Positions 8,305 through 62,941 of a DNA stretch of 64,000 nt are shown here, piece by piece (the first letter of the stretch is position 1; each line of letters begins with the position of its first letter). The notes beneath the pieces were generated by a model. The model worked only from the letters and a program-made list of their open reading frames with translations. It had not been told where the DNA came from and searched no databases. The translations under genes and the position numbers were made by a program. The stretch spans positions 114,317-178,316 of the forward strand of contig NW_027331416.1 of NCBI RefSeq assembly GCF_022965805.1. Direction: 5' to 3'. This stretch comes from Primulina eburnea (lineage: Eukaryota > Streptophyta > Magnoliopsida > Lamiales > Gesneriaceae).

Positions 8305-10766
8305 TAACAAGTAGTAGAAAACAACAATTTTGTGCCTAGTTTAGCCCATAAAGTATTCCAAAAGTAACTCAAGAATTTAACATCGCGACCAGGAACAGTA
8401 GTCTTAGGCATGCCACGCAACCTAACGACTTCTCTAAAGAACAAATCCGCAATGTTTGAAGCATCATTGGTTTTATGACAAGCTATAAAATGTGCCATCT
8501 TAGAGAATCTATCCACAACAACAAAAAAAGAATCCCTACCTTTCTTAGTCCTAGGCAACCCCAAAATAAAGTCCATAGAAATGTCAATCCAAGTTCTTTT
8601 TAAGAATAGCACGCAAAAGTGTTCCCAAAGTTCTATTGACAACTTCAGTCTGTCCATCCATTTGAGGATGACAAGTAGTAGAAAACAACAATTTTGTGCC
8701 AAGTTTGGTCCATAAAGTATTCCAAAAGTAACTCAAGAATTTAACATCGCGACCAGAAACAATAGTCCTAGGCATACCATGCAACCTAACGACTTCTCTA
8801 AAGAACAAATACGCATTGTTTGAAGCATCATTGCTTTTATGACAAGCTAGAAAATGTGCCATCTTAGATAATCTATCCACAACAACAAAAATAGAATCCC
8901 TACCCTTCTTAGTCCTAGGCAACCCCAAAATAAAGTCCATAGAAATGTCAATCCAAGTTCGTTTTAAGAATAGCACGCAAAAGTGTTCCCAAAGTTCTAT
9001 TGACAACTTCAGTTTGTCCATCCGTTTGAGGATAACAAGTAGTAGAAACCAACAATTTTGTGCCAAGTTTAGCCCATAAAGTCTTCCAAAAGTAACACAA
9101 GAATTTAACATCGCGACCAGAAACAATAGTCCTAGGCATGCCATGCAACCGAACGACATCTCTAAAGAACAAATCCGCAATGTTTGAAGCATCATCGGTT
9201 TTATGACAAGCTATAAAATGTGCCAACTAAGAGAATCTATCCACAACAACAAAATTAGAATTCCTCCCCTTCTTAGTCCTAGGCAACCCCAAAATAAAGT
9301 CCATAGAAATGTCAATCCAAGTTCTTTTTAAGAATAGCACGCAAAAGTGTTCCCAAAGTTCTATTGACAACTTCAGTTTGTCCATCCGTTTGAGGATGAC
9401 AAGTAGTAGAAACCTACAATTTTGTGCCAAGTTTAGCCCATAAAGTCTTCCAAAAGTAACACAAGAATTTAACATCGCGACCAGAAACAATATTCCTAGG
9501 CATGCCATGCAACCTAACGACTTCTCTAAAGAACAAATCCGCAATGTTTGAAGCATCATCGGTTTTATGACAAGCTATAAAATGTGCCAACTAAGAGAAT
9601 CTATCCACAACAACAAAAATAGAATTCCTCCCTTTCTTAGTCCTAGGCAACCCCAAAATAAAGTCCATAGAAATGTCAATCCAAGTTCTTTTTAAGAATA
9701 GCACGCAAAAGTGTTCCCAAAGTTCTATTGACAACTTCAGTTTGTCCATCCGTTTGAGGATGACAAGTAGTAGAAAACAACAATTTTGTGCCAAGTTTAG
9801 CCATAAAGTCTTCCAAAAGTAACTAAAGAATTTAACATCGCGACCAGAAACAATAGTCCTAGGCATACCATGCAACCTAACGACTTCTCTAAAGAACAAA
9901 TCCGCAATGTTTGAAGCATCATTTGTTTTATGACAAGCTATAAAATGTGCCATATTAGATAATCTATCCACAACAACAAAAAAAGAATCCCTACCCTTCT
10001 TAGTCCTAGGCAACCCCAAAATAAAGTCCATAGAAATGTCAATCCAAGTTCTTTTTAAGAATAGCACGCAAAAGTGTTCCCAAAGTTTTATTGAAAACTT
10101 CAGTTTGTCCATCCGTTTGAGGATAACAAGTAGTAGAAAACAACAATTTTATGCCAAGTTTAGCCCATAAAGTATTCCAAAAGTAACTCAAGAATTTAAC
10201 ATCGCCACCAGGAACAGTAGTCTTAGGCATGCCATGCAACCTAACGACTTCTCTAAAGAACAAATCCGCAATGTTTGAAGCATCATTGGTTTTATGACAA
10301 GCTATAAAATGTGCCATCTTAGGGAATCTATCCACAACAACAAAAATAGAATCCCTACCCTTCTTAGTACTAGGCAACCCCAAAATAATGTCCATAGAAA
10401 TGTCAATCCAAGTTCGTTTTATGAATAGAACGCAAAAGTGTTCCCAAAGTTCTGTTGACAACTTCAGTTTGTCATTCCGTTTGAGGATAACAAGTAGTAG
10501 AAACCAACAATTTTGTGCCAAGTTTAGCCCATAAAGTCTTCCAAAAGTAACACAAGAATTTAACATCGCGACCAGAAACAATAGTCCTAGGCATGCCTTG
10601 CAACCTAACGACTTCTCTAAAGAACAAATCCGCAATGTTTGAAGCATCATCGGTTTTATGACAAGCTATAAAATGTGCCAACTTAGAGAATCTATCCACA
10701 ACAACAAAAATAGAATTCCTCCCCTTCTTAGTCCTAGGCAACCCCAAAATAAAGTCAATAGAAATG

Positions 10767-13700
10767 TCAATCCAAGTTCTTTTTAAGAATAGCACGCAAA
10801 AGTGTTCCCAAAGTTCTATTGACAACTTCAGTTTGTCCATCCGTTTGAGGATGACAAGTAGTAGAAGACAACAATTTTGTGCCAAGTTTAGCCCATAAAG
10901 TCCTCCAAAAGTAACTCAATAATTTAACATCGCGACCAGAAACAATAGTCCTAGGCATGCCATGCAACCTAACGACTTTTCTAAAGAAAAAATCCGCAAT
11001 GTTTGAAGCATCATCGGTTTTATGACAATCTATAAAATGTGACATCTTAGAGAATCTATCCACAACAACAAAAATAGAATCCCTCCCCTTCTTAGTCCTA
11101 GGCAACCCCAAAATAAAGTCCATAGAAATGTCAAACCAAATTCTTTTTAAGAATAGAACGCAAAAGTGTTTCCAAAGTTCTATTGACAACTTCAGTTTGT
11201 CCATCCGTTTGAGGATGACAAGTAGTAGAAAACAATAATTTTGTGTCAGGTTTAGCCCATAAATTCTTCCAAAAGTAACTCAAGAATTTAACATCGTGAC
11301 CAGAAACAATAGTCCTAGACATGCCATGCAACCTAACGACTTCTCTAAAGAACAAATCCGCAATGTTTGAAGCATCATCGGTTTTATGACAAGCAAGAAA
11401 ATGTGCCATCTTTGATAATCTATCCACAACAACAAAAATAGAATCCCTACCCTTCTTAGTCCTAGGCAACCCCAAAATAAAGTCAATAGAAATGTCAATC
11501 CAAGTTCTTTTTAAGATTAGCACGCAAAAGTGTTCCAAAGTTCTATTGACAACTTCAGTTTGTCCATCCGTTTGAGGATGACAAGTAGTAGAAAACAATA
11601 ATTTTGTGTCAGGTTTAGCCCATAAATTCTTCCAAAAGTAACTCAAGAATTTAACATCGTGACCAGAAACAATAGTCCTAGACATGCCATGCAACCTAAC
11701 GACTTCTCTAAAGAACAAATCCGCAATGTTTGAAGCATCATCGGTTTTATGACAAGCTATAAAATGTGCCATCTTAGATAATCTATCCACAACAACAAAA
11801 AAAAAATCCCTACCCTTCTTAGTCCTAGGCAACCCCAAAATAAAGTAAATAGAAATGTCAATCCAAGTCTTTTTAAGAATAGCACGCAAAAGTGTTCCCA
11901 AATTTTTATTGACAACTTCAGTTTGTCCATCCGTTTGAGGATAACAAGTAGTAGAAAACAACAATTTTGTGCCTAGTTTAGCCCATAAAGTATTCCAAAA
12001 GTAACTCAAGAATTTAACATCGCGACCAGGAACAGTAGTCATAGGCATGCCATGCAACCTAACGACTTCTCTAAAGAACAAATCCGTAATGTTTGAAGCA
12101 TCATTGGTTTTATGACAAGCTATAAAATGTGCCATCTTAGAGAATCTATCCACAACAACAAAAAAAGAATCCCTACCCTTCTTAGTCCTAGGCAACCCCA
12201 AAATAAAGTCCATAGAAATGTCAATCCAAGTTCTTTTTAAGAATAGCACGCAAAAGTGTTCCCAAAGTTCTATTGACAACTTCAGTTTGTCCATCCGTTT
12301 GAGGATGACAAGTAGTAGAAAACAACAATTTTGTGCCAAGTTTAGCCCATAAAGTCTTCCAAAAGTAACTCAAGAATTTAACATCGCGACCAAAAACAAT
12401 AGTCCTAGGCATGCCATGCAACCTAACGACTTCTCTAAAGAACAAATCCGCAATGTTTGAAGCATCATCGGTTTTATGACAAGCTATAAAATGTGCCATT
12501 TTAGAAAATCTATCCACAATAACAAAAATAGAATCTCTACCCTTCTTAGTCCTAGGCAACCCCAAAATAAACTCTATAGAAATGTCAATCCAAGTTCTTT
12601 TTATGAATAGCACGAAAAGGTTTTCCCAAAGTTCTATCTACAACTTCAGTCTGTCCATCTGTTTGAGGATGAAAAGTAGTAGAAAACAACAATTTTGTGC
12701 CAAGTTTCGCCCATAAAGTATTCCAAAAGTAACTCAAGAATTTAACATCGCGACCAGAAACAATAGTCCTAGGCATGCCATGCAACCTAACGACTTCTCT
12801 AAAGAACAAATCCTCAATGTTTGAAGCATCATTTGTTTTATGACAAGCTATAAAATGTGCCATCTTAGATAATCTATCCACAACAACAAAAAAAGAATCC
12901 CTACCCTTCTTAGTCCTAGGCAACCCCAAAATAAAGTCCATAGAAATGTCAATCCAAGTTCTTTTTAAGAATAGCACGCAAAAGTGTTCCCAAAGTTTTA
13001 TTGACAACTTCAGTTTGTCCATCCGTTTGAGGATAACAAGTAGTAGAAAACAACAATTTTGTGCCTAGTTTAGCCCATAAAGTATTCCAAAAGTAACTCA
13101 AGAATTTAACATCGCGACCAGAAACAATAGTCCTAGGCATGCCTTGCAACCTAACGACTTCTCTAAAGAACAAATCCGCAATGTTTGAAGCATCATCGGT
13201 TTTATGACAAGCTATAAAATGTGCCAACTTAGAGAATCTATCCACAACAACAAAAATAGAATTCCTCCCCTTCTTAGTCCTAGGCAACCCCAAAATAAAG
13301 TCAATAGAAATGTCAATCCAAGTTCTTTTTAAGAATAGCACGCAAAAGTGTTCCCAAAGTTCTATTGACAACTTCAGTTTGTCCATCCGTTTGAGGATGA
13401 CAAGTAGTAGAAGACAACAATTTTGTGCCAAGTTTAGCCCATAAAGTCCTCCAAAAGTAACTCAAGAATTTAACATCGCGACCAGAAACAATAGTCCTAG
13501 GCATGCCATGCAACCTAACGACTTTTCTAAAGAAAAAATCCGCAATGTTTGAAGCATCATCGGTTTTATGACAATCTATAAAATGTGACATCTTAGAGAA
13601 TCTATCCACAACAACAAAAATAGAATCCCTCCCCTTCTTAGTCCTAGGCAACCCCAAAATAAAGTCCATAGAAATGTCAAACCAAATTCTTTTTAAGAAT

Positions 13701-15858
13701 AGAACGCAAAAGTGTTTCCAAAGTTCTATTGACAACTTCAGTTTGTCCATCCGTTTGAGGATGACAAGTAGTAGAAAACAATAATTTTGTGTCAGGTTTA
13801 GCCCATAAATTCTTCCAAAAGTAACTCAAGAATTTAACATCGTGACCAGAAACAATAGTCCTAGACATGCCATGCAACCTAACGACTTCTCTAAAGAACA
13901 AATCCGCAATGTTTGAAGCATCATCGGTTTTATGACAAGCTAGAAAATGTGCCATCATAGATAATCTATCCACAACAACAAAAATAGAATCCCTCCCCTT
14001 CTTAGTCATAGGCAACTCCAAAATAAAGTCCATAGAAATGTCAATCCAAGTTCTTTTTAAGAATAGCACGCAAAAGTGTTCCCAAAGTTTTATTGACAAC
14101 TTCAGTTTGTCCATCCGTTTGAGGATGACAAGTAGTATAAAACAATAATTTTGTGCCAAGTTTAGCCATAAAGTCTTCCAAAAGTAACTAAAGAATTTAA
14201 CATCGCGACCAGAAACAATAGTCCTAGGCATGCCATGCAACCTAACGACTTCTCTAAAGAACAAATCCGCAATGTTCGAAGCATCATTTGTTTTATGACA
14301 AGCTATAAAATGTGCCATCTTAGATAATCTATCCACAACAACAAAAAAAAAATCCCTACCCTTCTTAGTCCTAGGCAACCCCAAAATAAAGTCCATAGAA
14401 ATGTCAATCCAAGTCTTTTTAAGAATAGCACGCAAAAGTGTTCCCAAATTTTTATTGACAACTTTAGTTTGTCCATCCGTTTGAGGATAACAAGTAGTAG
14501 AAAACAACAATTTTGTGCCTAGTTTAGCCCATAAAGTATTCCAAAAGTAACTCAAGAATTTAACATCGCGACCAGGAACAGTAGTCATAGGCATGCCATG
14601 CAACCTAACGACTTCTCTAAAGAACAAATCCGTAATGTTTGAAGCATCATTGGTTTTATGACAAGCTATAAAATGTGCCATCTTAGAGAATCTATCCACA
14701 ACAACAAAAAAAGAATCCCTACCCTTCTTAGTCCTAGGCAACCCCAAAATAAAGTCCATAGAAATGTCAATCCAAGTTCTTTTTAAGAATAGCACGCAAA
14801 AGTGTTCCCAAAGTTCTATTGACAACTTCAGTTTGTCCATCCGTTTGAGGATGACAAGTAGTAGAAAACAACAATTTTGTGCCAAGTTTAGCCCATAAAG
14901 TCTTCCAAAAGTAACTCAAGAATTTAACATCGCGACCAAAAACAATAGTCCTAGGCATGCCATGCAACCTAACGACTTCTCTAAAGAACAAATCCGCAAT
15001 GTTTGAAGCATCATCGGTTTTATGACAAGCTATAAAATGTGCCATTTTAGAAAATCTATCCACAATAACAAAAATAGAATCTCTACCCTTCTTAGTCCTA
15101 GGCAACCCCAAAATAAACTCTATAGAAATGTCAATCCAAGTTCTTTTTATGAATAGCACGAAAAGGTTTTCCCAAAGTTCTATCTACAACTTCAGTCTGT
15201 CCATCTGTTTGAGGATGAAAAGTAGTAGAAAACAACAATTTTGTGCCAAGTTTCGCCCATAAAGTATTCCAAAAGTAACTCAAGAATTTAACATCGCGAC
15301 CAGAAACAATAGTCCTAGGCATGCCATGCAACCTAACGACTTCTCTAAAGAACAAATCCTCAATGTTTGAAGCATCATTTGTTTTATGACAAGCTATAAA
15401 ATGTGCCATCTTAGATAATCTATCCACAACAACAAAAAAAGAATCCCTACCCTTCTTAGTCCTAGGCAACCCCAAAATAAAGTCCATAGAAATGTCAATC
15501 CAAGTTCTTTTTAAGAATAGCACGCAAAAGTGTTCCCAAAGTTTTATTGACAACTTCAGTTTGTCCATCCGTTTGAGGATAACAAGTAGTAGAAAACAAC
15601 AATTTTGTGCCTAGTTTAGCCCATAAAGTATTCCAAAAGTAACTCAAGAATTTAACATCGCAACCAGGAACAGTAGTCTTAGGCATGCCATGCAACCTAA
15701 CGACTTCTCTAAAGAACAAATCTGCAATGTTTGAAGCATCATTGGTTTTATGACAAGCTATAAAATGTGCCATCTTAGAGAATCTATCCACAACAACAAA
15801 AAAAGAATCCCTACCCTTCTTAGTCCTAGGCAACCCCAAAATAAAGTCCATAGAAATG
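10767..15858 (-). repeat. Higher-order repeat HOR-1: two copies of a 7-monomer, 2546-bp unit
   Basis: 10767-13312 and 13313-15858 match with an exact 2546-bp offset. Subtype-specific features recur at this spacing: the aaagtcctcc monomer, the gtgtcaggttt monomer, the gaaaaggttttccc monomer and the caatgtttgaagcatcatttg monomer. One monomer differs in subtype between copies (11500-11860 against 14045-14405), as if replaced by conversion while keeping the total length. The first ten or so monomers of the block do not fit the same phase. Confidence 0.85.
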
Positions 15859-18052
15859 TCAATCCAAGTTCTTTTTAAGAATAGCACGCAAAAGTGTTCC
15901 CAAAGTTCTATTGACAACTTCAGTTTGTCCATCCGTTTGAGGATGACAAGTAGTAGAAAACAACAATTTTGTGCCAAGTTTAGCCCATAAAGTCTTCCAA
16001 AAGTAACTCAAGAATTTAACCTCGCGACCAAAAACAATAGTTCTAGGCATGCCATGCAACCTAACGACTTCTCTAAAGAACAAATCCGCAATGTTTGAAG
16101 CATCATCGGTTTTATGACAAGCTATAAAATGTGCCATCTTAGAGAATCTATCCACAATAACAAAAATAGAATCTCTACCCTTCTTAGTCCTTGGCAACCC
16201 CAAAATAAACTCTATAGAAATGTCAATCCAAGTTCTTTTTATGAATAGCACGAAAAAGTGTTCCCAAAGTTCTATTGACAACTTCAGTCTGTCCATCTGT
16301 TTGAGGATGAAAAGTAGTAGAAAACAACAATTTTGTGCCAAGTTTGGCCCATAAAGTATTCCAAAAGTATCTCAAGAATTTAACATCACGACCAGAAACA
16401 ATAGTCCTAGACATGCCATGCAACCTAACGACTTCTCTAAAGAACAAATCCGCAATGTTTGAAGCATCATCGGTTTTATGACAAGCTAGAAAATGTGTCA
16501 TCTTAGATAATCTATCCACAACAACAAAAATAGAATCCCTACCCTTCTTAGTCCTAGGCAACCCCAAAATAAAGTCCATAGAAATGTCAATCCAAGTTCT
16601 TTTTAAGAATAGCACGCAAAAGTGTTCCAAAGTTCTATTGACAACTTCAGTTTGTCCATCCGTTTGAGGATGACAAGTAGTAGAAAACAATAATTTTGTG
16701 CCAAGTTTAGCCATAAAGTCTTCCAAAAGTAACTAAAGAATTTAACATCGCGACCAGAAACAATAGTCCTAGGCATGCCATGCAACCTAACGACTTCTCT
16801 AAAAAACAAATCCGCAATGATTGAAGCATCATTTGTTTTATGACAAGCTATAAAATGTGCCATCTTAGATAATCTATCCACAACAACAAAAAAAGAATCC
16901 CTACCCTTCTTAGTCCTAGGCAACCCCAAAATAAAGTCCATAGAAATGTCAATCCAAGTTCTTTTTAAGAATAGCACGCAAAAGTGTTCCCAAAGTTTTA
17001 TTGACAACTTCAGTTTTTCCATCCGTTTGAGGATAACAAGTTGTAGAAAACAACAATTTTGTGCCTAGTTTAGCCCATAAAGTATTTCAAAAGTAACTCA
17101 AGAATTTAACATCGCGACCAGGAACAGTAGTCTTAGGCATGCCACGCAACCTAACGACTTCTCTAAAGAACAAATCCGCAATGTTTGAAGCATCATTGGT
17201 TTTATGACAAGCTATAAAATGTGCCATCTTAGAGAATCTATCCACAACAACAAAAAAAGAATCCCTACCTTTCTTAGTCCTAGGCAACCCCAAAATAAAG
17301 TCCATAGAAATGTCAATCCAAGTTCTTTTTAAGAATAGCACGCAAAAGTGTTCCCAAAGTTTTATTGACAACTTCAGTTTGTCCATCCGTTTGAGGATAA
17401 CAAGTAGTAGAAAACAACAATTTTGTGCCTAGTTTAGCCCATAAAGTATTCCAAAAGTAACTCAAGAATTTAACATCGCGACCAGGAACAGTAGTCTTAG
17501 GCATGCCACGCAACCTAACGACTTCTCTAAAGAACAAATCCGCAATGTTTGAAGCATCATTGGTTTTATGACAAGCTATAAAATGTGCCATCTAAGAGAA
17601 TCTATCCACAACAACAAAAAAAGAATTCCTACCTTTCTTAGTCCTAGGCAACCCCAAAATAAAGTCCATAGAAATGTCAATTCAAGTTCTTTTCAAGAAT
17701 AGCACGCAAAAGTGTTCCCAAAGTTCTATTGACAACTTCAGTCTGTCCATCCGTTTGAGGATGACAAGTAGTAGAAAACAACAATTTTGTGCCAAGTTTG
17801 GTCCATAAAGTATTCCAAAAGTAACTCAAGAATTTAACATCGCGACCAGAAACAATAGTCCTAGGCATGCCATGCAACCTAACGACTTCTCTAAAGAACA
17901 AATACGCAATGTTTGAAGCATCATTGCTTTTATGACAAGCTAGAAAATGTGCCATCTTAGATAATCTATCCACAACAACAAAAATAGAATCCCTACCCTT
18001 CTTAGTCCTAGGCAACCCCAAAATAAAGTCCATAGAAATGTCAATCCAAGTT

Positions 18053-18057
18053 CGTTT
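18053..18057. other. Target site duplication CGTTT, left (three-LTR element)
   Basis: CGTTT directly left of the LTR tip TGTAGTG. It recurs at 23008-23012 after the last LTR. The uninterrupted satellite reads aagttcgttttaag, so the insertion is exact. Confidence 0.95.
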
Positions 18058-19172
18058 TGTAGTGACCCGTTCCAGAATCACCTACTAATCAAGAACTAAG
18101 CATGCAATCAACCTAATTAACAATAATCAGAGATAACAGCGGAAATACCACAAATGATAGATATACAACCCAATCGAAGTCTAGAACAACTCAAAATAAA
18201 ATATCCAATACAACCATATCGAATCAAAACAATATCGATAAACTAAACCAACCAGCTACTCAACGTCCTCCTCCTGCTCCTCCTGAGCTGTCCAACCTGA
18301 GGCCTGCCCCGTGGGAATGGGGTGTCCAAGAATAAACAAAACCGAGGACGTGAGCGATAAGAACGCCCAGTACAAAAGTATGAGTATACAGACCTATATG
18401 AAATGCACATGCTATGATATGATACCAGGGTAGTCAAGAAACAGGAATCACAAAAGGATCTCAACAATGCTCAGTCTAGAGGCGCCAAGTGGATAGTGCC
18501 GCGCGGTACACCTCTGGGTCACTGCATCCACTACAAGACAGACGTGGACCTAAAATGTCCCGGACCACCGAAGCCCTCCCGACCCGTCGGCCACTGTGTA
18601 CTCTCGGTGTCCATGCGTCCACAAGACAGGGCTGAGCGGCCCCAAGATATAGCTTATCTCGAAAGAGATACAGCTCAACAGTAAAGGCTATCTCAAAGGA
18701 GAATACGGCTCAACATGAAATGCAACGTGCAGTAATAAACGTGACATAATAGCATGCATCATATGACATATATCAATGCACCACATAATCATGCAACACA
18801 TATATGAATGTATACTCAACCAGGATATCTCGGATAGTACTTTCGTACCTCTATCACAGCAAGCCTAGCCTTACGCAACACCGCTAATCAGGTCTAGAAC
18901 AAGCCTACGCATCAAAAGCATACTCAATCAATACTACCATGCTCGACTAGCAAAACCAGTACTCCCTAGTACTACCAAAGGTTTAGGGTTTACCTTCGTC
19001 CGTCGACAGCCCTTTGATGTCGATTGCCTCGAAACTCAGGCGCCGCTACGCTACTACTCCTGGCAGCTCTTAGCTATCGCTCGACCAACAACTAACCCTA
19101 GAAACCTTCCAAACTCTCCAAAATGAGAGAAAACTCAAGAAATTGGCAAGTCAAAAATGAGAAATCCGAGCA

Positions 19173-23007: not shown

Positions 23008-23012
23008 CGTTT
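23008..23012. other. Target site duplication CGTTT, right (three-LTR element)
   Basis: Matches 18053-18057. The satellite resumes as CGTTTTAAGAATAGC in register. Confidence 0.95.
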
Positions 23013-23686
23013 TAAGAATAGCACGCAAAAGTGTTCCCAAAGTTCTATTGACAACTTCAGTTTGTCCATCCGTTTGAGGATAACAAGTAGTAGAAACCAA
23101 CAATTTTGTGCCAAGTTTAGCCCATAAAGTCTTCCAAAAGTAACACAAGAATTTAACATCGCGACCAGAAACAATAGTCCTAGGCATGCCATGCAACCTA
23201 ACGACATCTCTAAAGAACAAATCCGCAATGTTTGAAGCATCATCGGTTTTATGACAAGCTATAAAATGTGCCAACTAAGAGAATCTATCCACAACAACAA
23301 AAATAGAATTCCTCCCCTTCTTAGTCCTAGGCAACCCCAAAATAAAGTCCATAGAAATGTCAATCCAAGTTCTTTTTAACAATAGCACGCAAAAGTGTTC
23401 CCAAAGTTCTATTGACAACTTCAGTTTGTCCATCCGTTTGAGGATGACAAGTAGTAGAAACCTACAATTTTGTGCCAAGTTTAGCCCATAAAGTCTTCCA
23501 AAAGTAACACAAGAATTTAACATCGCGACCAGAAACAATATTCCTAGGCATGCCATGCAACCTAACGACATCTCTAAAGAACAAATCCGCAATGTTTGAA
23601 GCATCATCGGTTTTATGACAAGCTATAAAATGTGCCAACTAAGAGAATCTATCCACAACAACAAAAATAGAATTCCTCCCCTTCTT
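23008..23686 (-). repeat. Integrase-derived satellite, continuation of S1 (about 1.9 monomers)
   Basis: Continues the array interrupted at 18057. Two monomers of the subtypes with accaacaattttg and cctacaattttg, both with aacacaagaattt. The same ordered pair occurs at 8950-9670 and 39600-40310. It breaks at ccccttctt where the B1 LTR begins. Confidence 0.93.
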
Positions 23687-25213
23687 TGTGACACCCTGAC
23701 CCGTAACGATAAAAATACGCAGCGGAAATAAATTTTTTTTTCTTTAAAATATGGAAGGAGTTTCAAAATACATTTCATAAAATGTTTACAAAATAAATAC
23801 ATGATCATTCAAATGATATACAAAATACAAAACAATCATTCTTATGATCATGTCCCAAAATATTTGCAAAATAATCTTCCTTCCAACAGTGTATGCATAT
23901 GACCCCTATCCACAGTCAACGTCCCGGGCCTCCACTCTGATCTGCATCACATGAAAATAACTGAAATGAGAATAAATCTCAGCAAGTGGAACTCTACATA
24001 GCAATGATACATAGTATACTCTGTAAAACATGACTTTGAAATCATAAATACCATCAACTCTGAAACATGAATACTGTAGCAATAACTGTAGCAATAACAA
24101 TAGCAATAGATAGCAATACGATGGTATTTATCTTTTCTATGGTTGGATTGATATCAATAGTATCTCTGTCTGTGGTTGCAAATATCCCATCGATATAAAT
24201 CGATAACTGTGAGGGATAAAAGCCTATGGTCGTTGATCAACTAATTGCATGCAATGCTCTGACTATGATTAATAAATCCAATAAAACATTTGAACTCTGA
24301 ATAGCATTTAAAGCCGTCATTTCGCAATCTCTATCTTTTGTATTCCCTTTTTAACAATAGTGAGACATACAATGCCTCCAATAGATAATCAATGAAATCA
24401 ATACATAACAATGGATCAATGGAAGGGAATAACACTTTGAAACCTTTAAAACACAATACATATATCATCATGTGAGCAAAAGGATGAAATTCCACTTACA
24501 AACCAATAGAACACCTCCAAACTATACTCTTGGTACACCACCTACAACAATAATCCATAAATAACACCAATATCAACTCTATATCCAAAAATATAAGTCA
24601 AACAATCCATTAAACCAACAATAACATCACCCTATAACATCTCATATCCAAAACCATGATAGAATCGCACCAAAAACTTACCTAAGCTTCCCAACACCAA
24701 GGAGAACGTCGATCTCAAGTCGAATCGTCGAAAAGAAGCTTGGATTGAAGATAGGAAATGAACGAAATGGTAGAAAACCCTTGGAACTAGAGAGGAAATC
24801 TCGAAAATGAAAAGAAGATAAGGTAGAAATGAAGTCAACTCAATCAAAAAGGTACTAAATATCTCGCCCATACTTACACCGCGGGTGCGGTCACACAAGC
24901 ACCGCGGGTGCGCTAAGCTCACGGCATTCCAACAAAATTCCCACGCACGATCACCGCGGGTGCGGTGCTACAATTACCGCGGGTGCGGTGCTTACACTGC
25001 CGCGAGTGCGGTGCCACTTCGGCCAAGAACAAACCAAGGCAACTGAAAATCGAACCGAAACACTGAAACGAACAACCAACAACATCTAATACCTCAAGAC
25101 AACAATAACCAATAATACTATGGCCCAAAACACAACTCTAAACATATAAATCATAAAACCCAATAAACACAATAAAGCTTAAACCGTACCGTACACCGGG
25201 CTCGGCTATTACA
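23687..25213 (-). repeat. B1 3' LTR (about 1527 bp)
   Basis: TGTGACACCCTGACCC...GGCTATTACA, matching the LTRs of B2 (58349-59964) over its length. It contains the palindromic GC cluster accgcgggtgcggt at 24877-25015. It joins satellite directly at 23686. Confidence 0.88.
24877..25015 (-). repeat. Palindromic GC minisatellite (ACCGCACCCGCGGT) in B1 U3
   Basis: Five near-copies of accgcgggtgcggt, an imperfect palindrome, separated by short spacers. The same motif is expanded in the B2 LTRs (53351-53580 and 59540-59770) and occurs in the same element-sense orientation in the solo LTR at 60608. A weak TATA-like gatatttag follows near 24850 in the element sense. Confidence 0.8.
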
Positions 25214-31777: not shown

Positions 31778-31790
31778 TCCTCCCCTTCTT
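31778..31790 (-). other. Element C polypurine tract, inside the pol frame
   Basis: Plus-strand tcctccccttctt, AAGAAGGGGAGGA in the element sense, abutting the LTR TG. It is translated as part of FQEGEDD, so plus-strand priming site and coding sequence overlap. Confidence 0.88.
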
Positions 31791-33897: not shown

Positions 33898-33976
33898 AAA
33901 GTGCTAGGTGCATTAGTTAAGCCAAAAGGCATAACCATCCACTCATACAACCCATACTTAGTTTTAAAATCAGTTT
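33898..33976 (-). other. Lesion zone in element C RT: two single-base deletions
   Basis: Compared with the usual RT reading, one base is missing right after REGDE (near 33977, making an immediate TGA) and one more about 70 bp downstream in the sense direction (near 33900). The intervening stretch is recognisable RT only in a shifted frame. The two lesions do not restore a continuous protein. Confidence 0.8.
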
Positions 33977-37004: not shown

Positions 37005-37006
37005 AA

Positions 37007-42500: not shown

Positions 42501-45500
42501 CAAGTTCTTTTTAAGAATAGCACGCAAAAGTGTTCCCAAAGCTTTATTGACAACTTCAGTTTGTCCATCCGTTTGAGGATGACAAGTAGTAGAAAACAAT
42601 AATTTTGTGCCAAGTTTAGCCATAAAGTCTTCCCAAAGTAACTAAAGAATTTAACATCGCGACCAGAAACAATAGTCCTAGGCATGCCATGCAACCTAAC
42701 GACTTCTCTAAAGAACAAATCCGCAATGTTTGAAGCATCATTTGTTTTATGACAAGCTATAAAATGTGCCATCTTAGATAATCTATCCACAACAACAAAA
42801 AAAGAATCCCTACCCTTCTTAGTCCTAGGCAACCCCAAAATAAAGTCCATAGAAATGTCAATCCAAGTTCTTTTTAAGAATAGCACGCAAAAGTGTTCCC
42901 AAAGTTTTATTGACAACTTCAGTTTGTCCATCTGTTTGAGGATAACAAGTAGTAGAAAACAACAATTTTGTGCCAAGTTTAGCCCATAAAGTATTGCAAA
43001 AGTAACTCAAGAATTTAACATCGCCACCAGGAACAGTAGTCTTAGGCATGCCATGCTACCTAACGACTTCTCTAAAGAACAAATCCGCAATGTTTGAAGC
43101 ATCATTGGTTTTATGACAAGCTATAAAATGTGCCATCTTAGAGAATCTATCCACAACAACAAAAATAGAATCCCTACCCTTCTTAGTCCTAGGCAACCCC
43201 AAAATAAAGTCCATAGAAATGTCAATCCAAGTTCGTTTTAAGAATAGCACGCAAAAGTGTTCCCAAAATTCTATTGACAACTTCAGTTTGTCCATCCGTT
43301 TGAGGATAACAAGTAGTAGAAACCAACAATTTTGTGCCAAGTTTAGCCCATAAAGTCTTCCAAAAGTAACACAAGAATTTAACATAGCGACCAGAAACAA
43401 TAGTCCTAGGCATGCCTTGCAACCTAACGACTTCTCTAAAGAACAAATCCGCAATGTTTGAAGCATCATCGGTTTTATGACAAGCTTTAAAATGTGCCAT
43501 ATTAGAGAATCTATCAACAACAAAAAAATAGAATCCCTACCCTTCTTAGTCCTAGGCAACCCCAAAATAAACTCTATCGAAATGACATTCCAAGTTCTTT
43601 TTATGAATAGCACGCAAAAGTGTTCCCAAAGTTCTATTGACAACTTCAGTCTGTCCATCTGTTTGAGGATGAAAAGTAGTAGAAAACAACAATTTTGTGC
43701 CAAGTTTGGCCCACAAAGTATTCCCAAAGTAACTCAAGAATTTGACATCGCGACCAGAAACAATAGTCCTAGGCATGCCATGCAACCTACTTCTCTAAAG
43801 AACAAATACGCAATGTTTGAAGCATCATTGGTTTTATGACAAGCTAGAAAATGTGCCATCTTAGATAATCTATCCACAACAACAAAAATAGAATCCCTAC
43901 CCTTCTTAGTCCAAGGCAACCCCAAAATAAAGTCCATAGAACTGTCAATCCAAGTTCGTTTTAAGAATAGCACGCAAAAGTGTTTCCAAAGTTCTATTGA
44001 CAACTTCAGTTTGTCCATCCGTTTGAGGATGACAAGTAGTAGAAAACAATAATTTTGTGTCAGGTTTAGCCCATAAATTCTTCCAAAAGTAACTCAAGAA
44101 TTTAACATCGTGAGCAGAAACAATAGTCCTAGATATGCCATGCAACCTAACGACTTCTCTAAATAACAAATCCGCAATGTTTGAAGCATCATCGGTTTTA
44201 TGACAAGCTAGAAAATGTGCCATCTTAGATAATCTATCCACAACAACAAAAATAGAATGCCTCCCCTTCTTAGTCCTAGGCAACCCCAAAATAAAGTCCA
44301 TAGAAATGTCAATCCAAGTTCTTTTTAAGAATAGCACGCAAAAGTGTTCCCAAAGTTCTATTGACAACTTCAGTTTGTCCATCCGTTTGAGGATGACAAG
44401 TAGTAGAAAACAATAATTTTGTGTCAGGTTTAGCCCATAAATTCTTCCAAAAGTAACTCAAGAATTTAACATCGTGACCAGAAACAATAGTCCTAGACAT
44501 GCCATGCAACCTAACGACTTCTCTAAAGAACAAATCCGCAATGTTTGAAGCATCATCGGTTTTATGACAAGCTAGAAAATGTGCCATCTTAGATAATCTA
44601 TCCACAACAACAAAAATAGAATCCCTCCCCTTCTTAGTCATAGGCAACCCCAAAATAAAGTCCATAGAAATGTCAATCCAAGTTCTTTTTAAGAATAGCA
44701 CGCAAAAGTGTTCCCAAAGTTTTATTGACAACTTCAGTTTGTCCATCCGTTTGAGGATGACAAGTAGTAGAAAACAATAATTTTGTGCCAAGTTTAGCCA
44801 TAAAGTCTTCCAAAGTAACTAAAGAATTTAACATCGCGACCAGAAACAATAGTCCTAGGCATGCCATGCAACCTAACGACTTCTCTAAAGAACAAATCCG
44901 CAATGTTTGAAGCATCATTTGTTTTATGACAAGCTATAAAATGTGCCATCTTAGATAATCTATCCACAACAACAAAAAAAGAATCCCTACCCTTCTTAGT
45001 CCTAGGCAACCCCAAAATAAAGTCCATAGAAATGTCAATCCAAGTTCTTTTTAAGAATAGCACGCAAAAGTGTTCCCAAAGTTTTATTGACAACTTCAGT
45101 TTGTCCATCCGTTTGAGGATAACAAGTAGTAGAAAACAACAATTTTGTGCCAAGTTTAGCCCATAAAGTATTGCAAAAGTAACTCAAGAATTTAACATCG
45201 CCACCAGAAACAGTAGTCTTAGGCATGCCATGCAACCTAACGACTTCTCTAAAGAACAAATCCGCAATGTTTGAAGCATCATTGGTTTTATGACAAGCTA
45301 TAAAATGTGCCATCTTAGAGAATCTATCCACAACAACAAAAATAGAATCCCTACCCTTCTTAGTCCTAGGCAACCCCAAAATAAAGTCCATAGAAATGTC
45401 AATCCAAGTTCGTTTTAAGAATAGCACGCAAAAGTGTTCCCAAAGTTCTATTGACAACTTCAGTTTGTCCATTCGTTTGAGGATAACAAGTAGTAGAAAC

Positions 45501-48500
45501 CAACAATTTTGTGCCAAGTTTAGCCCATAAAGTCTTCCAAAAGTAACTCAAGAATTTAACATCGCGACCAGAAACAATAGTCCTAGGCATGCCATTGCAA
45601 CCTAACGACTTCTCTAAAGAACAAATCCGCAATGTTTGAAGCATCATCGGTTTTATGACAAGCTATAAAATGTGCCATCTTAGAGAATCTATCCACAACA
45701 ACAAAAATAGAATCCCTACCCTTCTTAGTCCTAGGCAACCCCAAAATAAACTCTATCGAAATGACATTCCAAGTTCTTTTTATGAATAGCACGCAAAAGT
45801 GTTCCCAAAGTTCTATTGACAACTTCAGTCTGTCCATCTGTTTGAGGATGAAAAGTAGTAGAAAACAACAATTTTGTGCCAAGTTTGGCCCACAAAGTAT
45901 TCCAAAGTAACTCAAGAATTTGACATCGCGACCAGAAACAATAGTCCTAGGCATGCCATGCAACCTACTTCTCTAAAGAACAAATACGCAATGTTTGAAG
46001 CATCATTGGTTTTATGACAAGCTAGAAAATGTGCCATCTTAGATAATCTATCCACAACAACAAAAATAGAATCCCTACCCTTCTTAGTCCAAGGCAACCC
46101 CAAAATAAAGTCCATAGAACTGTCAATCCAAGTTCGTTTTAAGAATAGCACGCAAAAGTGTTTCCAAAGTTCTATTGACAACTTCAGTTTGTCCATCCGT
46201 TTGAGGATGACAAGTAGTAGAAAACAATAATTTTGTGTCAGGTTTAGCCCATAAATTCTTCCAAAAGTAACTCAAGAATTTAACATCGTGAGCAGAAACA
46301 ATAGTCCTAGATATGCCATGCAACCTAACGACTTCTCTAAATAACAAATCCGCAATGTTTGAAGCATCATCGGTTTTATGACAAGCTAGAAAATGTGCCA
46401 TCTTAGATAATCTATCCACAACAACAAAAATAGAATGCCTCCCCTTCTTAGTCCTAGGAAACCCCAAAATAAAGTCCATAGAAATGTCAATCCAATTTCT
46501 TTTTAAGAATAGCACGCAAAAGTGTTCCCAAAGTTCTATTGACAACTTCAGTTTGTCCATCCGTTTGAGGATGACAAGTAGTAGAAAACAATAATTTTGT
46601 GTCAGGTTTAGCCCATAAATTCTTCCAAAAGTAACTCAAGAATTTAACATCGTGACCAGAAACAATAGTCCTAGACATGCCATGCAACCTAACGACTACT
46701 CTAAAGAACAAATCCGCAATGTTTGAAGCATCATCGGTTTTATGACAAGCTAGAAAATGTGCCATCTTAGATAATCTATCCACAACAACAAAAATAGAAT
46801 CCCTCCCCTTCTTAGTCATAGGCAACCCCAAAATAAAGTCCATAGAAATGTCAATCCAAGTTCTTTTTAAGAATAGCACGCAAAAGTGTTCCCAAAGTTT
46901 TATTGACAACTTCAGTTTGTCCATCCGTTTGAGGATGACAAGTAGTAGAAAACAATAATTTTGTGCCAAGTTTAGCCATAAAGTCTTCCAAAAGTAACTA
47001 AAGAATTTAACATCGCGACCAGAAACAATAGTCCTAGGCATGCCATGCAACCTAACGACTTCTCTAAAGAACAAATCCGCAATGTTTGAAGCATCATTTG
47101 TTTTATGACAAGCTATAAAATGTGCCATCTTAGATAATCTATCCACAACAACAAAAAAAGAATCCCTACCCTTCTTAGTCCTAGGCAACCCCAAAATAAA
47201 GTCCATAGAAATGTCAATCCAAGTTCTTTCTAAGAATAGCACGCAAAAGTGTTCCCAAAGTTTTATTGACAACTTCAGTTTGTCCATCCGTTTGAGGATA
47301 ACAAGTAGTAGAAAACAACAATTTTGTGCCAAGTTTAGCCCATAAAGTATTGCAAAAGTAACTCAAGAATTTAACATCGCCACCAGGAACAGTAGTCTTA
47401 GGCATGCCATGCGAACCTAACGACTTCTCTAAAGAACAAATCCGCAATGTTTGAAGCATCATTGGTTTTATGACAAGCTATAAAATGTGCCATCTTAGAG
47501 AATCTATCCACAACAACAAAAATAGAATCCCTACCCTTCTTAGTCCTAGGCAACCCCAAAATAAAGTCCATAGAAATGTCAATCCAAGTTCGTTTTAAGA
47601 ATAGCACGCAAAAGTGTTCCCAAAATTCTATTGACAACTTCAGTTTGTCCATTCGTTTGAGGATAACAAGTAGTAGAAACCAACAATTTTGTGCCAAGTT
47701 TAGCCCATAAAGTCTTCCAAAAGTAACACAAGAATTTAACATCGCGACCAGAAACAATAGTCTTAGGCATGCCTTGCAACCTAACGACTTCTCTAAAGGA
47801 CAAATCCGCGATGTTTGAAACATCATTGGTTTTATGACAAGCTTTAAAATGTGCCATATTAGAGAATCTATCAACAACAACAAAAATAGAATCCCTACCC
47901 TTCTTAGTCCTAGGCAACCCCAAAATAAACTCTATCGAAATGTCATTCCAAGTTCTTTTTATGAATAGCACGCAAAAGTGTTCCCAAAGTTCTATTGACA
48001 ACTTCAGTCTGTCCATCTGTTTGAGGATGAAAAGTAGTAGAAAACAACAATTTTGTGCCAAGTTTGGCCCACAAAGTATTCCCAAAGTAACTCAAGAATT
48101 TGACATCGCGACCAGAAACAATAGTCCTAGGCATGCCATGGAACCTAACGACTTCTCTAAAGAACAAATACGCAATGTTTGAAGCATCATTGGTTTTATG
48201 ACAAGCTAGAAAATGTGCCATCTTAGAGAATCTATCCACAACAACAAAAATAGAATCCCTACCCTTCTTAGTCCTAGGCAACCCAAAATAAAGTCCATAG
48301 AAATGTCAATCCAAGTTCGTTTTAAGAATAGCACGCAAAAGTGTTCCCAAAGTTCTATTGACAACTTCAGTTTGTCCATCCGTTTGAGGATAACAAGTAG
48401 TAGAAACCAACAATTTTGTGCCAAGTTTAGCCCATAAAGTCTTCCAAAAGTAACACAAGAATTTAAGATCGCGACCAGAAACAATAGTCCTAGGCATGCC

Positions 48501-51500
48501 ATGCAACCTAACGACTTCTCTAAAGAACAAATCCGCAATGTTTGAAGCATCATCGGTTTTATGACAAGCTATAAAATGTGCCAACTAAGAGAATCGATCC
48601 ACAACAACAAAAATAGAATTCCTCCCCTTCTTAGTCCTAGGCAACCCCAAAATAAAGTCCATAGAAATGTCAATCCAAGTTCTTTTTAAGAATAGCACGC
48701 AAAAGTGTTCCCAAAGTTCTATTGACAACTTCAGTTTGTCCATCCGTTTGAGGATGACAAGTAGTAGAAAACAACAATTTTGTGCCAAGTTTAGCCCATA
48801 AAGTCTTCCAAAAGTAACTCAAGAATTTAACATCGCGACGAGAAACAAAAGTCCTAGGCATGCCATGCAACCTAGCGACTTCTCTAAAGAAGAAATCCGC
48901 TATGTTTGAAGCATAATCGGTTTTATGACAAGCTATAAAATGTGCCATCTTAGAGAATCTATCCACAGCAAGAAAAATAGAATCCCTCCCCTTCTTAGTC
49001 CTAGGCAACCCCAAAATAAAGTCCATAGAAATGTCAATCCAAGTTCTTTTTAAGAATAGCACGGAAAAGTGTTCCCAAAGTTTTATTGACAACTTCATTT
49101 TGTCCAACCGTTTGAGGATGACAAGTAGTAGAAAACAACAATTTTGTGTCAGGTTTAGCCCATAAATTCTTCCAAAAGTAACTCAAGAATTTAACATCTT
49201 GACCAGAAACAACGGTCCTAGACATGCCATGCAACCTAACGACTTCTCTAAAGAACAAATCCAGTATGTTTGAAGCATCATCGGTTTTATGACAAGCTAG
49301 AAAATGTGCCATCTTAGATATTCTATCCACAACAACAAAAATAGAATCCCTCCCCTTCTTAGTCATAGGCAACCCCAAAATAAAGTCCATAGAAATGTCA
49401 TTCCAAGTTCTTTTTATGAATAGCACGCAAAAGTGCTCCCAAAGTTCTATTGACAACTTCAGTCTGTCCATCTGTTTGAGGATGAAAAGTAGTAGAAAAC
49501 AACAATTTTGTGCCAAGTTTGGCCCATAAAGTATTCCTAAAGTAACTCAAAAATTTAACATCGCGACCAGAAACAATAGTCCTAGGCATGCCATGCAACC
49601 TAACGACTTCTCTAAAGAACAAATACGCAATGTTTGAAGCATCATTGGTTTTATGACAAGCTATAAAATGTGCCATCTTAGAGAATCTATCCACAACAAC
49701 AAAAATAGAATCCCTACCCTTCTTAGTCCTAGGCAACCCCAAAATAAAGTCCATAGAAATGTCAATCCAAGTTCGTTTTATGAATAGCACGCAAAAGTGT
49801 TCCCAAAGTTCTATTGACAACTTCAGTTTGTCCATCCGTTTGAGGATAACAAGTAGTAGAAACCAACAATTTTGTGCCACAGTTTAGCCCATAAAGTCTT
49901 CCAAAAGTAACACAAGAATTTAACATCGCGACCAGAAACAATAGTCCTAGGCATGCCATTGCAACCTAACGACTTCTCTAAAGAACAAATCCGCAATGTT
50001 TGAAGCATTATCGGTTTTATGACAAGCTATAAAATGTGCTAACTAAGAGAATCTATCCACAACAACAAAAATAGAATTCCTCCCCTTCTTAGTCCTAGGC
50101 AACCCCAAAATAAAGTCCATAGAAATGTCAATCCAAGTTCTTTTTAAGAATAGCACGCAAAAGTGTTCCCAAAGTTCTATTGATAACTTCAGTTTGTCCA
50201 TCCGTTTGAGGATGACAAGTAGTACAAAACAACAATTTTGTGCCAAGTTTAGCCCATAAAGTCCTCCAAAAGTAACTCAAGAATTTAACATCGCGACCAG
50301 AAACAATAGTCCTAGGCATGCCATGCAACCTAACGACTTTTCTAAAGAAAAAATCCGCAATGTTTGAAGCATCATCGGTTTATGACAATCTATAAAATGT
50401 GTCATCTTAGAGAATCTATCCACAACAACAAAAATAGAATCCCTCCGCTTCTTAGTCCTAGGCAACCCCAAAATAAAGTCCATAGAAATGTCAATCCAAG
50501 TTCTTTTTAAGAATAGAACGCAAAAGTGTTTCCAAAGTTCTATTGACAACTTCAGTTTGTCCATCCGTTTGAGGATGACAAGTAGTAGAAAACAATAATT
50601 TTGTGTCAGGTTTAGCCCATAAATTCTTCGAAAAGTAACTCAAGAATTTAACATCGTGACCAGAAACAATAGTCCTAGACATGTCATGCAACCTAACGAC
50701 TTCTCTAAAGAACAAATCCGCAATGTTTGAAGCATCATCGGTTTTATGACAAGCTAGAAAATGTGCCATCTTAGATAATCGATCCACAACAACAAAAATA
50801 GAATCCCTACCCTTCTTAGTCCTAGGCAACCCCAAAATAAAGTCCATAGAAATGTCAATCCAAGTTCTTTTTAAGAATAGCACGCAAAAGTGTTCCAAAG
50901 TTCTATTGACAACTTCAGTTTGTCCATCCGTTTGAGGATGACAAGTAGTAGAAAACAATAATTTTGTGTCAGGTTTAGCCCATAAATTCTTCCAAAAGTA
51001 ACTCAAGAATTTAACATCGTGACCAGAAACAATAGTCCTAGACATGCCATGCAACCTAACGACTTCTCTAAAGAACAAATCCGCAATGTTTGAAGCATCA
51101 TCGGTTTTATGACAAGCTAGAAAATGTGCCATCTTAGATAATCTATCCACAACAACAAAAATAGAATCCCTCCCCTTCTTAGTCATAGGCAACCCCAAAA
51201 TAAAGTCCACAGAAATGTCAATCCAAGTTCTTTTTAACAATAGCACGCAAAAGTGTTCCCAAAGTTTTATTGACAACTTCAGTTTGTCCATCCGTTTGAG
51301 GATGACAAGTAGTAGAAAAAAATAATTTTGTGCCAAGTTTAGCCATAAGGCATGCCATGCAACCTAACGACTTCTCTAAAGAACAAATCCGCAATGTTTG
51401 AAGCATCATTTGTTTTATGACAAGCTATAAAATGTGCCATCTTAGATAATCTATCCACAACAACAAAAAAAGAATCCCTACCCTTCTTAGTCCTAGGCAA

Positions 51501-52170
51501 CCCCAAAATAAAGTCCATAGAAATATCAATCCAAGTTCTTTTTAAGAATAGCACGCAAAAGTGTTCCCAAAGTTTTATTGACAACTTCAGTTTGTCCATC
51601 CGTTTGAGGATAACAAGTAGTAGAAAACAACAATTTTGTGCCAAGTTTAGCCCATAAAGTATTGCAAAAGTAACTCAACAATTTAACATCGCCACCAGGA
51701 ACAGTAGTCTTAGGCATGCCATGCGACCTAACGACTTATCTAAAGAACAAATCCGCAATGTTTGAAGCATCATTGGTTTTATGACAAGCTATAAAATGTG
51801 CCATCTTAGAGAATCTATCCACAACAACAAAAATAGAATCCCTACCCTTCTTAGTCCTAGGCAACCCCAAAATAAAGTCCATAGAAATGTCAATCCAAGT
51901 TCGTTTTAAGAATAGCACGCAAAAGTGTTCCCAAAATTCTATTGACAACTTCAGTTTGTCCATCCGTTTGAGGATAACAAGTAGTAGAAACCAACAATTT
52001 TGTGCCAAGTTTAGCCCATAAAGTCTTCCAAAAGTAACACAAGAATTTAACATCGCGACCAGAAACAATAGTCCTAGGCATGCTTTGCAACCTAACGACT
52101 TCTCTAAAGAACAAATCCGCGATGTTTGAAGCATCATCGGTTTTATGACAAACTTTAAAATGTGCCATTA
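39567..52170 (-). repeat. Integrase-derived 364-bp satellite, block S2 (about 35 monomers)
   Basis: Same monomer and orientation as S1. Subtypes: SGRD with [19 protein letters not shown] and aacacaag; SGRD with RTLWAKLG and aaagtcctcc; SGHD or SAHD with [10 protein letters not shown] and gtgtcaggttt; PGGD with CNTLWAKLG and a gccaccaggaacag motif; [10 protein letters not shown] with the agccataaag 1-bp deletion; and NTLWAKLG with gatgaaaagtag. A short monomer at 51340-51360 (gccataaggcatgcc) has lost about 90 bp. None keeps the second catalytic Asp. Confidence 0.95.
41560..48100 (-). repeat. Higher-order repeat HOR-2: 6-monomer unit of about 2178 bp, three copies
   Basis: Marker tttgacatcgcgaccag occurs at 43741, 45919 and 48098. 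Marker agccataaagtcttcc occurs at 42620, 44798 and 46976. Both are spaced 2178 bp. Copies 43734-45911 and 45912-48090 are nearly identical, including rare changes such as gtgagcagaaac, atagatatgcc and catgcaacctacttctc. The first copy has one extra SGHD-type monomer, so it reaches back to about 41200. Confidence 0.85.
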
Positions 52171-58343: not shown

Positions 58344-58348
58344 CTAAA

Positions 58349-59964: not shown

Positions 59965-60607
59965 AACAAAAATAGAATCCCTACCCTTCTTAGTCCTAGG
60001 CAACCCCAAAATAAAGTCCATAGAAATGTCAATCCAAGTTCGTTTTATGAATAGCACGCAAAAGTGTTCCCAAAGTTCTATTGACAACTTCAGTTTGTCC
60101 ATCAGTTTGAGGATAACAAGTAGTAGAAACCAACAATTTTGTGTCACGTTTAGCCCATAAAGTCTTCCAAAAGTAACACAAAAATTTAACATCGCGACCA
60201 GAAACAATAGTCCTAGGCATGCCTTGCAACCTAACGACTTCTCTAAAGAACAAATCCGCAATGTTTGAAGCATCATCGGTTTTATGACAAGCTATAAAAT
60301 GTGCCAACTAAGAGAATCTATCCACAACAACAAAATAGAATTCCTCCCCTTCTTAGTCCTAGGCAACCCCAAAATATAGTCCATAGAAATGTCAATCCAA
60401 GTTCTTTTTAAGAATAGCACGCAAAAATATTCCCAAAGTTCTATTGACAACTTCAGTTTGTCCATCCGTTTGAGGATGACAAGTAGTAGAAAACAACAAT
60501 TTTGTGTCAAGTTTAGCCCATAAAGTCCTCCAAAAGTAACTCAAGAATTTAACATCGCGACCAGAAACAATAGTCCTAGGCATGCCATGCAACCTAACGA
60601 CTTTTCT
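59965..60607 (-). repeat. Integrase-derived satellite, block S3 (about 1.8 monomers)
   Basis: Resumes within the monomer at aacaaaaatagaatccc and stops at acgacttttct where the solo LTR begins. Same subtypes (accaacaattttg, then aaagtcctcc) as elsewhere. Confidence 0.93.
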
Positions 60608-60970: not shown

Positions 60971-61914
60971 CATGCAATATAGATTATGTGTCACCAACTC
61001 CTTTTGCTCAGATGATTCAGCCGAGAGGGAACTTCAAGGAGGGAGCTTCCATTTCTTTTGATCTTAGAGTGGTGATTGTACGAGATTTAGCCATTCGATT
61101 TGTGTTCCGAGGTAGGATTTGTACTCCTTACATCGACGGCTACAAGGTGACGTAAGTTTTATGTAATTCCAACATGTTTTGAATTATAGATGTTGGAGAA
61201 ATTGTAATATGTTAGTTATATTGTGTTCTTGAGGTATTGAGCATGGTATATTCGTAACCGCATCAAGAAACGGATGTTATTTGCTACGATTGTTAGTTTC
61301 CAGCATGTATATGATTTGACTAGAACTGCATGTGTTTAGAAATGTGGTTTCATAGAATATGAAACCCATATTTATTGCTTTCAGTATGATAGCATGTTTA
61401 TATGATTTGATTTAAATTGCATGCCTATCTGAAAGGAGTTGCATGCTTATTGTGATTTGATTTCATAGATTATGAAATCTATTACTTTGAATATGTTCAT
61501 GATAGCATGTTTTATGATTTAGATTGTTTATATACATGCTTACCATGTTTTATACTGGGATTTATTCTTACCGGAGTTATGCGGCTGTTGTCTTGTTTTG
61601 TATGTGTGCATGACAACAGGTGGGACTGGATCGGGGTCAAGAGGATGAGGAGAGAAGAAGAGTTAGCGTGGTGATTCCGGACTTACAGTAGATTTGGTTT
61701 ATTACTTGAACTTATTAACTGAACCTTTGACTTAGATTGTACAGTATTGTACTTTTATACTGAAATGTATTTTATACTGAAATTTATATTATTTAGATTC
61801 CATTACCTTCCGCATTTACATTTTAAAAAGAAAAATTTTGAGACCCTGTTTATCAGAATTGATAATTAAATCCCAACGACGATTAAGAAGATGATTAGCG
61901 TCCGGGTCCCCACA

Positions 61915-62941
61915 TGTGCCATCTTAGAGAATCTATCCACAACAACAAAAATAGAATCCCTACCCTTCTTAGTCCTAGGCAACCCCAAAATAAAGTCCAT
62001 AGAAATGTCAATCAAGTTCGTTTTAAGAATAGCACGCAAAAGTGTTCCCAAAGTTCTATTGACAACTTCAGTTTGTCCATCCGTTTGAGGATAACAAGTA
62101 GTAGAAACCAACACTTTTGTGCCAAGTTTAGCCCATAAAGTCTTCCAAAAGTAACACAAGAATTTAACATCGCGACCAGAAACAATAGTCCTAGGCATGC
62201 CATGCAACCTAACGACTTCTCTAAAGAACAAACCCGCCATTTTTGACGCATCATCGGTTTTATGACAAGCTATAAAATTTGCCAACTAAGAGAATCTATC
62301 CACAACAACAAAAATAGAATTCCTCCCCTTGTTAGTCCTAGGCAACCCCAAAATAACGTCCATAGAAATGTCAATCCAAGTTCTTTTTAAGAATAGCACG
62401 CAAAAGTGTTCCCAAAGTTCTATTGACAACTTCAGTTTGTCCATCCGTTTGAGGATGACAAGTAGTAGAAAACAACAATTTTGTGGCAAGTTTAGCCCAT
62501 AAAGTCCTCCAAAAGTAACTCAAGAATTTAACATCGCGACCAGAAACAATATTCCTTGGCATGCCATGCAACCTAACGACTTTTCTAAAGAAAAAATCCG
62601 CAATGTTTGAAGCATCATCGGTTTTATGACAATCTATAAAATGTGCCATCTTAGAGAATCTATCCACAACAACAAAAATAGAATCCCTCCCCTCCTTAGT
62701 CCTAGGCAACCCCAAAATAAAGTCAATAGAAATGTCAATCCAAGTTCTTTTTAAAAATAGCACGCAAAAGTGTTTCCGAAGTTCTATTGACAACTTCAGT
62801 TTGTCCATCCGTTTGAGGATGACAAGTAGTAGAAAACAATAATTTTGTGTCAGGTTTAGACCATAAATTCTTCCAAAAATAACTCAAGAATTTAACATCT
62901 TGAGCAGAAACAATAGTCCTAGACATGCCATGCAACCTAAC
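61915..62941 (-). repeat. Integrase-derived satellite, block S4 (about 2.8 monomers)
   Basis: Last satellite stretch in the window, with SGRD- and SAQD-type monomers. It shows somewhat more private substitutions than S1 and S2 (for example aacccgccatttttgacgc near 62230), as expected near an array edge. Ends at catgcaacctaac. Confidence 0.92.

Follow-up and report, generated by a model that had tools for sequence, protein, structure and literature searches.

Several plant satellite DNAs are of retrotransposon origin. The maize tandem repeats CRM1TR and CRM4TR derive from the long terminal repeat (LTR) and untranslated region (UTR) of CRM elements; the CRM1TR unit averages 819 nt at locus II and the CRM4TR unit measures 1369–1391 nt, and the two repeats occur at two loci and one locus, respectively (PMC3648361). 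In Lathyrus sativus, satellites have arisen from tandem repeats in the 3′ UTR of Ogre elements (PMC7004042), and LTR-derived repeats have been described in jujube (PMC12596083). A 250-bp centromeric repeat of wheat and rye resembles the gag of cereba (Cheng and Murata, 2003, cited in PMC3648361). The expectation of the initial annotation that retrotransposon-derived satellites come mostly from LTRs or untranslated regions agrees with the maize, Lathyrus, and jujube cases, but a coding origin has a precedent in the gag-related repeat of wheat and rye.

The Primulina eburnea satellite considered here resembles CRM1TR and CRM4TR in deriving from CRM-clade elements (here CRM-like), in being interrupted by LTR elements, and in locus-specific variants. 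The maize repeats lie in pericentromeric regions, a placement that is putative for the Primulina satellite. It differs in its source, which is integrase coding sequence rather than LTR and UTR, in its short unit of 364 or 200 bp, and in its presence on at least 14 chromosome-scale contigs rather than at few loci. Like the wheat and rye repeat, it is related to coding sequence of a centromeric Ty3/gypsy element; there the counterpart is gag, with an amino acid similarity of 53%, whereas here it is the integrase core, at ~94% DNA identity to one element copy (L056) and with mapped breakpoints. Like the Ogre-derived satellites, it is an abundant plant satellite of retrotransposon origin, although in Ogre short tandem repeats pre-exist in the UTR, whereas here the duplicated segment was coding and present in a single copy. 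In a literature search of titles, abstract openings, and passages, neither a satellite from an integrase core nor its donor lineage or return insertions were found; nor was a named record of the 364-bp satellite found in that literature, or a paper on Primulina satellites among titles and abstract openings. What appears to be new is thus the integrase-coding source, the donor lineage, the breakpoints, the 200-bp derivative, and the insertion of parent-family elements back into the satellite.

The window, i.e., the whole 64-kb stretch analysed, corresponds to C886:114317–178316 in an assembly of 812 Mb and 1,224 contigs. About 68 head-to-tail monomers of 364 bp, amounting to 24.7 kb, had been annotated initially, and tandem-repeat detection (TRF) and BLAST bear this out: the 364-bp period is present in five blocks (Table 1) totalling 24,717 bp, or 67.9 units, with the integrase sense on the minus strand. 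The five blocks are a single array split by other elements, and the interval 8305–62941 additionally contains ~30 kb of non-satellite DNA, mostly LTR elements inserted in the array. Cutting in junction phase gives 62 complete units, and BLAST with a minimum length of 355 bp gives 63. The lengths of the 62 units are 364 bp (38 units), 363 bp (16), 362 bp (3), 365 bp (2), and 366, 360, and 359 bp (one each), and their mean pairwise identity is 94.5% (range 89.8–100%). One unit of the third block has a spacing of 308 bp, near 51348. Local duplications are evident in block 1, where four pairs of units seven apart (10780/13326 to 12598/15144) are 99.7–100% identical, and in block 3, where the same holds for two pairs six apart. 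Scans of the window for tRNAs and Rfam families found nothing.

Table 1. Positions of the satellite blocks and of the parent-family element P in the window.
Feature	Position	Strand	Basis and remarks
Satellite block 1	8303..18058	-	26.8 units of 364 bp; TRF, BLAST
Satellite block 2	23010..23689	-	block 1 resumed past an LTR insertion (target duplication CGTTT); TRF, BLAST
Satellite block 3	39559..52168	-	~35 units; TRF, BLAST
Satellite block 4	59965..60607	-	1.8 units; BLAST
Satellite block 5	61914..62941	-	2.8 units; TRF, BLAST
P (parent family; CRM-like Ty3/gypsy)	30860..37924	-	LTR pair, ends, primer-binding site (PBS), polypurine tract (PPT), Pfam
P 3′ LTR	30860..31777	-	918 bp; identity to 5′ LTR 98.9%
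P 5′ LTR	37007..37924	-	LTR pair, 918 bp
P ORF: end of RT, RNase H, integrase	31384..33903	-	last part within the 3′ LTR
P ORF: gag, zinc knuckle, protease, start of RT	33977..36373	-	ORF list, Pfam
P integrase segment homologous to one satellite unit	32306..32670	-	between GAACCTTGG and GAACTT, which are 365 bp apart

The interrupting elements are of several kinds. The insertion at 18058–23007 comprises three tandem LTR copies of ~1,428 bp separated by two ~333-bp spacers (unit 1,761 bp, 99.9% alike), has a single perfect 5-bp target duplication and satellite on both sides, and carries a primer-site-like motif seen by eye; it is read as a very short non-autonomous LTR element in the form of a tandem dimer. 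Adjoining the start of the satellite, an LTR element occupies 1–8304; its LTRs (1–2242 and 6064–8304, 99.5% alike) measure at least 2.24 kb, and a gag-like ORF was recognised by eye at 2767–3585. Two related LTR elements (LTR start TGTGACACC) split the satellite at 23687–39566 and 52179–59965, and one of them holds the nested element P. The 3′ LTR of this host element is cut at 39566, where the satellite starts again, which points to recombination with the array. The LTR pairs of the elements within the array give ages of 0.05–1.0 My at a substitution rate of 1.3e-8 per site per year and of 0.1–1.8 My at 7e-9 per site per year; because these elements inserted into the array, the array is at least as old as the oldest insert.

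The parent family of the unit is represented in the same window. Each unit aligns at ~82% DNA identity to the integrase core of P, so that the initial reading of the unit as the mid-region of a Ty3/gypsy integrase coding sequence is upheld by a parent family in the window itself and by a closer relative on C1. The shared segment spans the positions assigned to the catalytic residues of Ty3/gypsy integrases. In this respect the description of the unit as a catalytic core from the first Asp through the Glu is accurate for the positions covered, but not for the residues: the codon of the second catalytic Asp reads GGT in 58, GCT in 3, and CGT in 1 of the 62 units, and Asp in none. By contrast, 54 of 59 element rows have GAC or GAT there (53 of 58 distinct loci, since P is counted twice, as P and as L009); the five exceptions read GGC (twice), AAC, GAA, and TAC. 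Two decayed copies (L065 and L066) also have Gly at this position, with GGC differing from the GGT of the satellite.

The structure of P fits that of the CRM clade, group A. Its ORFs match the Pfam families RVT_1, RT_RNaseH, Integrase_H2C2, and rve, and its insertion into another LTR element that splits the satellite is marked by the target duplication GTGTC. The LTR of P starts with TGATG (read in P only), and the 3′ LTR ends with YATCA in 26 of the 29 readable loci of the family; the remaining ends, ACGTCA in P (L009) and L010 and ACATAA in L019, are one letter off. The 5′ LTR is followed by TTTGGTATCAGAGC, a primer site of the tRNA-Met type, and the polyprotein runs into the 3′ LTR, its ORF ending at 31384. 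A chromodomain was not detected in P by Pfam at E 0.001, and a comparable C-terminal tail was seen in 9 of 12 related proteins (8 from other genera), the other 3 yielding none. According to the CRM literature, most or all CRM families have TGATG...T/CATCA ends and a tRNA-Met primer site, the polyprotein enters the 3′ LTR in all group A members, and the group A elements tested are centromeric, the CR motif being key to this (PMC3059260). The P family thus shares with group A the LTR ends, the tRNA-Met-type primer site, and the extension of the polyprotein into the 3′ LTR; it differs in that its copies are also dispersed, occurring across whole chromosomes. A local concentration was observed on C4, where 29 of 50 exact P-family LTR ends cluster at 12538756–16812148 (12.5–16.8 Mb). 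Several of these ends lie in pairs ~4.5 kb apart, perhaps representing a shorter non-autonomous form, and the cluster, which is without satellite among the matches listed, is a possible element-based centromere.

The search of the whole assembly, as suggested in the initial annotation, recovered the family, of which the window holds a small part, and revealed a second form in addition. Exact matches to a 45-bp junction pattern number 28,850 in the assembly (13,934 + 14,916), whereas the reversed pattern has 0, which excludes chance; the first 100 of those listed all lie at C1 31.56–31.62 Mb with a spacing of mostly ~362 bp. The exact pattern occurs 29 times for 62 complete units in the window and 28 times for 67 junction seeds in eight 200-bp loci. 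Because only part of the units or junction seeds carry it, the amount of satellite is estimated at 12–25 Mb, or 1.5–3.1% of the assembly. The second form, of ~200 bp, is the unit minus 163 bp and likewise makes long arrays. Probing for it with a 93-bp sequence yields 2,779 exact matches (control 0), the first listed being at C2 16.6–19.8, C11 22.7, and C13 12.3–12.7 Mb. A variant at C18 12.6–13.3 Mb is spaced by multiples of ~200 or 400 bp, and a rare-variant probe has 17 matches only. On an unplaced contig (C96:20219–88764), matches of a satellite variant recur at ~685, 1,285, and 1,767 bp, a spacing that hints at a different higher-order repeat.

The satellite is present on at least 14 of the 18 chromosome-scale contigs (C1–C3, C5–C11, C13, C15, C16, and C18), and none was found on C4, C12, C14, and C17 among the matches listed. 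Its zones are megabase-scale on several contigs. A strict rule of one zone per chromosome was dropped, since C2, C3, C5, C7, C8, C10, and C15 have more than one, and some blocks on C5 and C7 lie close to a contig end. From these positions the satellite may be said to form heterochromatin-like blocks, often with one main zone; the multiple zones, some of them near contig ends, and the four contigs with none among the matches listed leave a strictly centromeric placement unsupported.

Insertions of the parent family into the satellite were surveyed in the best 30 loci by likeness to the C-terminus of the P integrase, P included, 150 having been scored of 24,421 candidates. The 3′ LTR end is readable in 29 of these 30 loci, and satellite starts directly at the LTR end in six (L012, L019, L020, L024, L030, and L037). 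In L020 the satellite adjoins a second LTR end ~480 bp beyond the first, and L038, in which it adjoins a truncated LTR, was left out of the count. L009, which is P, and L010 have a common flank and probably represent one insertion event. At a genome share of 3%, the probability of at least 6 in 29 is ~2e-4, and without L020 that of at least 5 in 28 is 1.3e-3; as the sample was picked by similarity and not at random, the excess is suggestive and no proof of targeting. These figures suggest that the P family may prefer the satellite as an insertion target. The same origin of the satellite is compatible with passive insertion, in which the element family and the satellite both accumulate in low-recombination heterochromatin and no targeting takes place. 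Such a course is a real possibility, if somewhat short of an even chance. It accords with the spread of P-family copies over whole chromosomes, with the unrelated LTR elements that likewise lie in the array of the window, and with the cluster of LTR ends on C4, where no satellite occurs among the matches listed. It is opposed by the six adjoining loci, since the satellite is estimated to make up no more than ~3% of the genome, and by the group A structure of P, given what is reported on the centromeric placement of that group (PMC3059260).

The donor lineage was sought among 60 element loci (L009–L038 and L047–L076), 58 of which gave a full core, L012 and L069 yielding none. Nearest to the satellite among the 58 is L056, a decayed element on C1 at 35.35 Mb, with a mean identity of 93.7% and a maximum of 95.3% over the 62 units, compared with 81.5% for the core of P. 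P itself was ruled out as the donor on this difference; moreover, its nested position within another LTR element and the divergence of only 1.1% between its LTRs show P to be related to the donor rather than the donor itself. In a FastTree phylogeny the 62 units are monophyletic (0.74), L056 is their sister (0.91), and both are nested among the elements (0.993); the support for the monomer clade is thus only moderate. An identical copy of the L056 flank on C626 is probably a duplicate or alternative haplotype.

The proximity of L056 to the satellite might also have been acquired secondarily, its core having been overwritten by satellite while the true donor was lost. The core of L056 is 82.8% identical to 33 P-like cores, below its flanks at 87.5 and 88.7%, and for 18 other members of its group the core identity averages 86.4%; since the core is further from the P-like elements than the flanks are, an old conversion by satellite is possible. 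Against this, the second Asp codon of L056 is still GAT, which none of the 62 units has; L056 falls outside the satellite clade; and its best match to a unit (95.3%) is near the average between units (94.5%), unlike a recent copy. We consider overwriting improbable on this evidence and retain L056 as a member of the donor lineage.

The breakpoints point to how the segment may have become tandem. The satellite junction reads GAACTTGG, and the unit ends at a short GAAC(C)TT repeat whose two occurrences are 365 bp apart in P, so the tandem duplication may well have arisen at this repeat. The arrays could instead be remains of tandem repeats carried within a retrotransposon, the Ogre/Tat 3′ UTR route documented for Lathyrus (PMC7004042). 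For the present satellite this is very unlikely: BLAST finds the integrase core in a single copy in P, the arrays start outside the LTR end in the six counted loci, and the source is coding sequence, not UTR. Repeats pre-existing inside the element were rejected on the first two of these grounds.

A duplicated coding segment, as preferred here, leaves a record in the codon positions. Differences between the satellite and P fall at codon positions 1/2/3 in the proportions 10.7/5.4/41.2%, whereas those between the satellite and L056 are 5.7/7.7/6.9% and those among the satellite units 5.4/5.3/5.8%; the excess at third positions in the first comparison and the evenness of the other two indicate that coding DNA was captured and afterwards evolved as non-coding. 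The unit length is divisible by 3 in 18 of 62 units and not in the other 44, so that the frame is broken at most junctions. Of two satellite ORFs scanned with Pfam, one matches rve (3.3e-14) and the other no family. The proposal that the satellite encodes tandem integrase-like peptides under selection is scarcely credible and was rejected on the even codon-position variation and the broken frame, the second Asp being gone from every unit as well, although ORFs in the array reach 412 aa, one ORF matches rve, and the native start frame is stop-free in 37 of 62 units, a share (~60%) that by our own estimate is roughly the neutral expectation at the divergence of the array. The array produces no integrase.

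It seems quite probable to us that this non-coding satellite goes back to the integrase core of a CRM-like Ty3/gypsy element, which was duplicated in tandem, and that it developed in five steps. Exchange or replication slippage between GAACCTTGG / GAACTT-type repeats in an element of the L056 lineage would have produced the first tandem copies. These copies then ceased to be under coding constraint and the second catalytic Asp disappeared, as the units now display. Unequal exchange or conversion may then have spread and homogenised the units, leaving the arrays and the local block duplications observed. A 163-bp internal deletion gave rise to the ~200-bp unit, which likewise came to form long arrays. 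Finally, elements of the same family, which are found in the satellite, have inserted into it, perhaps by preference.

The present role of the satellite is most likely that of structural pericentromeric or centromeric repeat chromatin. Since elements of the same family insert into it, the array is a landing site for its source family. A further-reaching reading is that the satellite is a landing pad which a centromeric retrotransposon made for itself: an integrase-derived satellite, in its 364-bp and derived 200-bp forms, would be the main (peri)centromeric satellite of most chromosomes, and the still-coding family would preferentially integrate into it, with mutual maintenance of the two. We put this forward tentatively, as a conjecture that may well fail. 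The case bears on how new centromeric satellites arise; those of retrotransposon origin in the literature consulted come mostly from LTRs or UTRs. Here, one genome presents the segment from which the unit came, the repeats at its breakpoints, an element related to the donor, the lost coding constraint, and a second-generation derivative, so that both the emergence of a satellite and the re-entry of its parent element would become directly testable.
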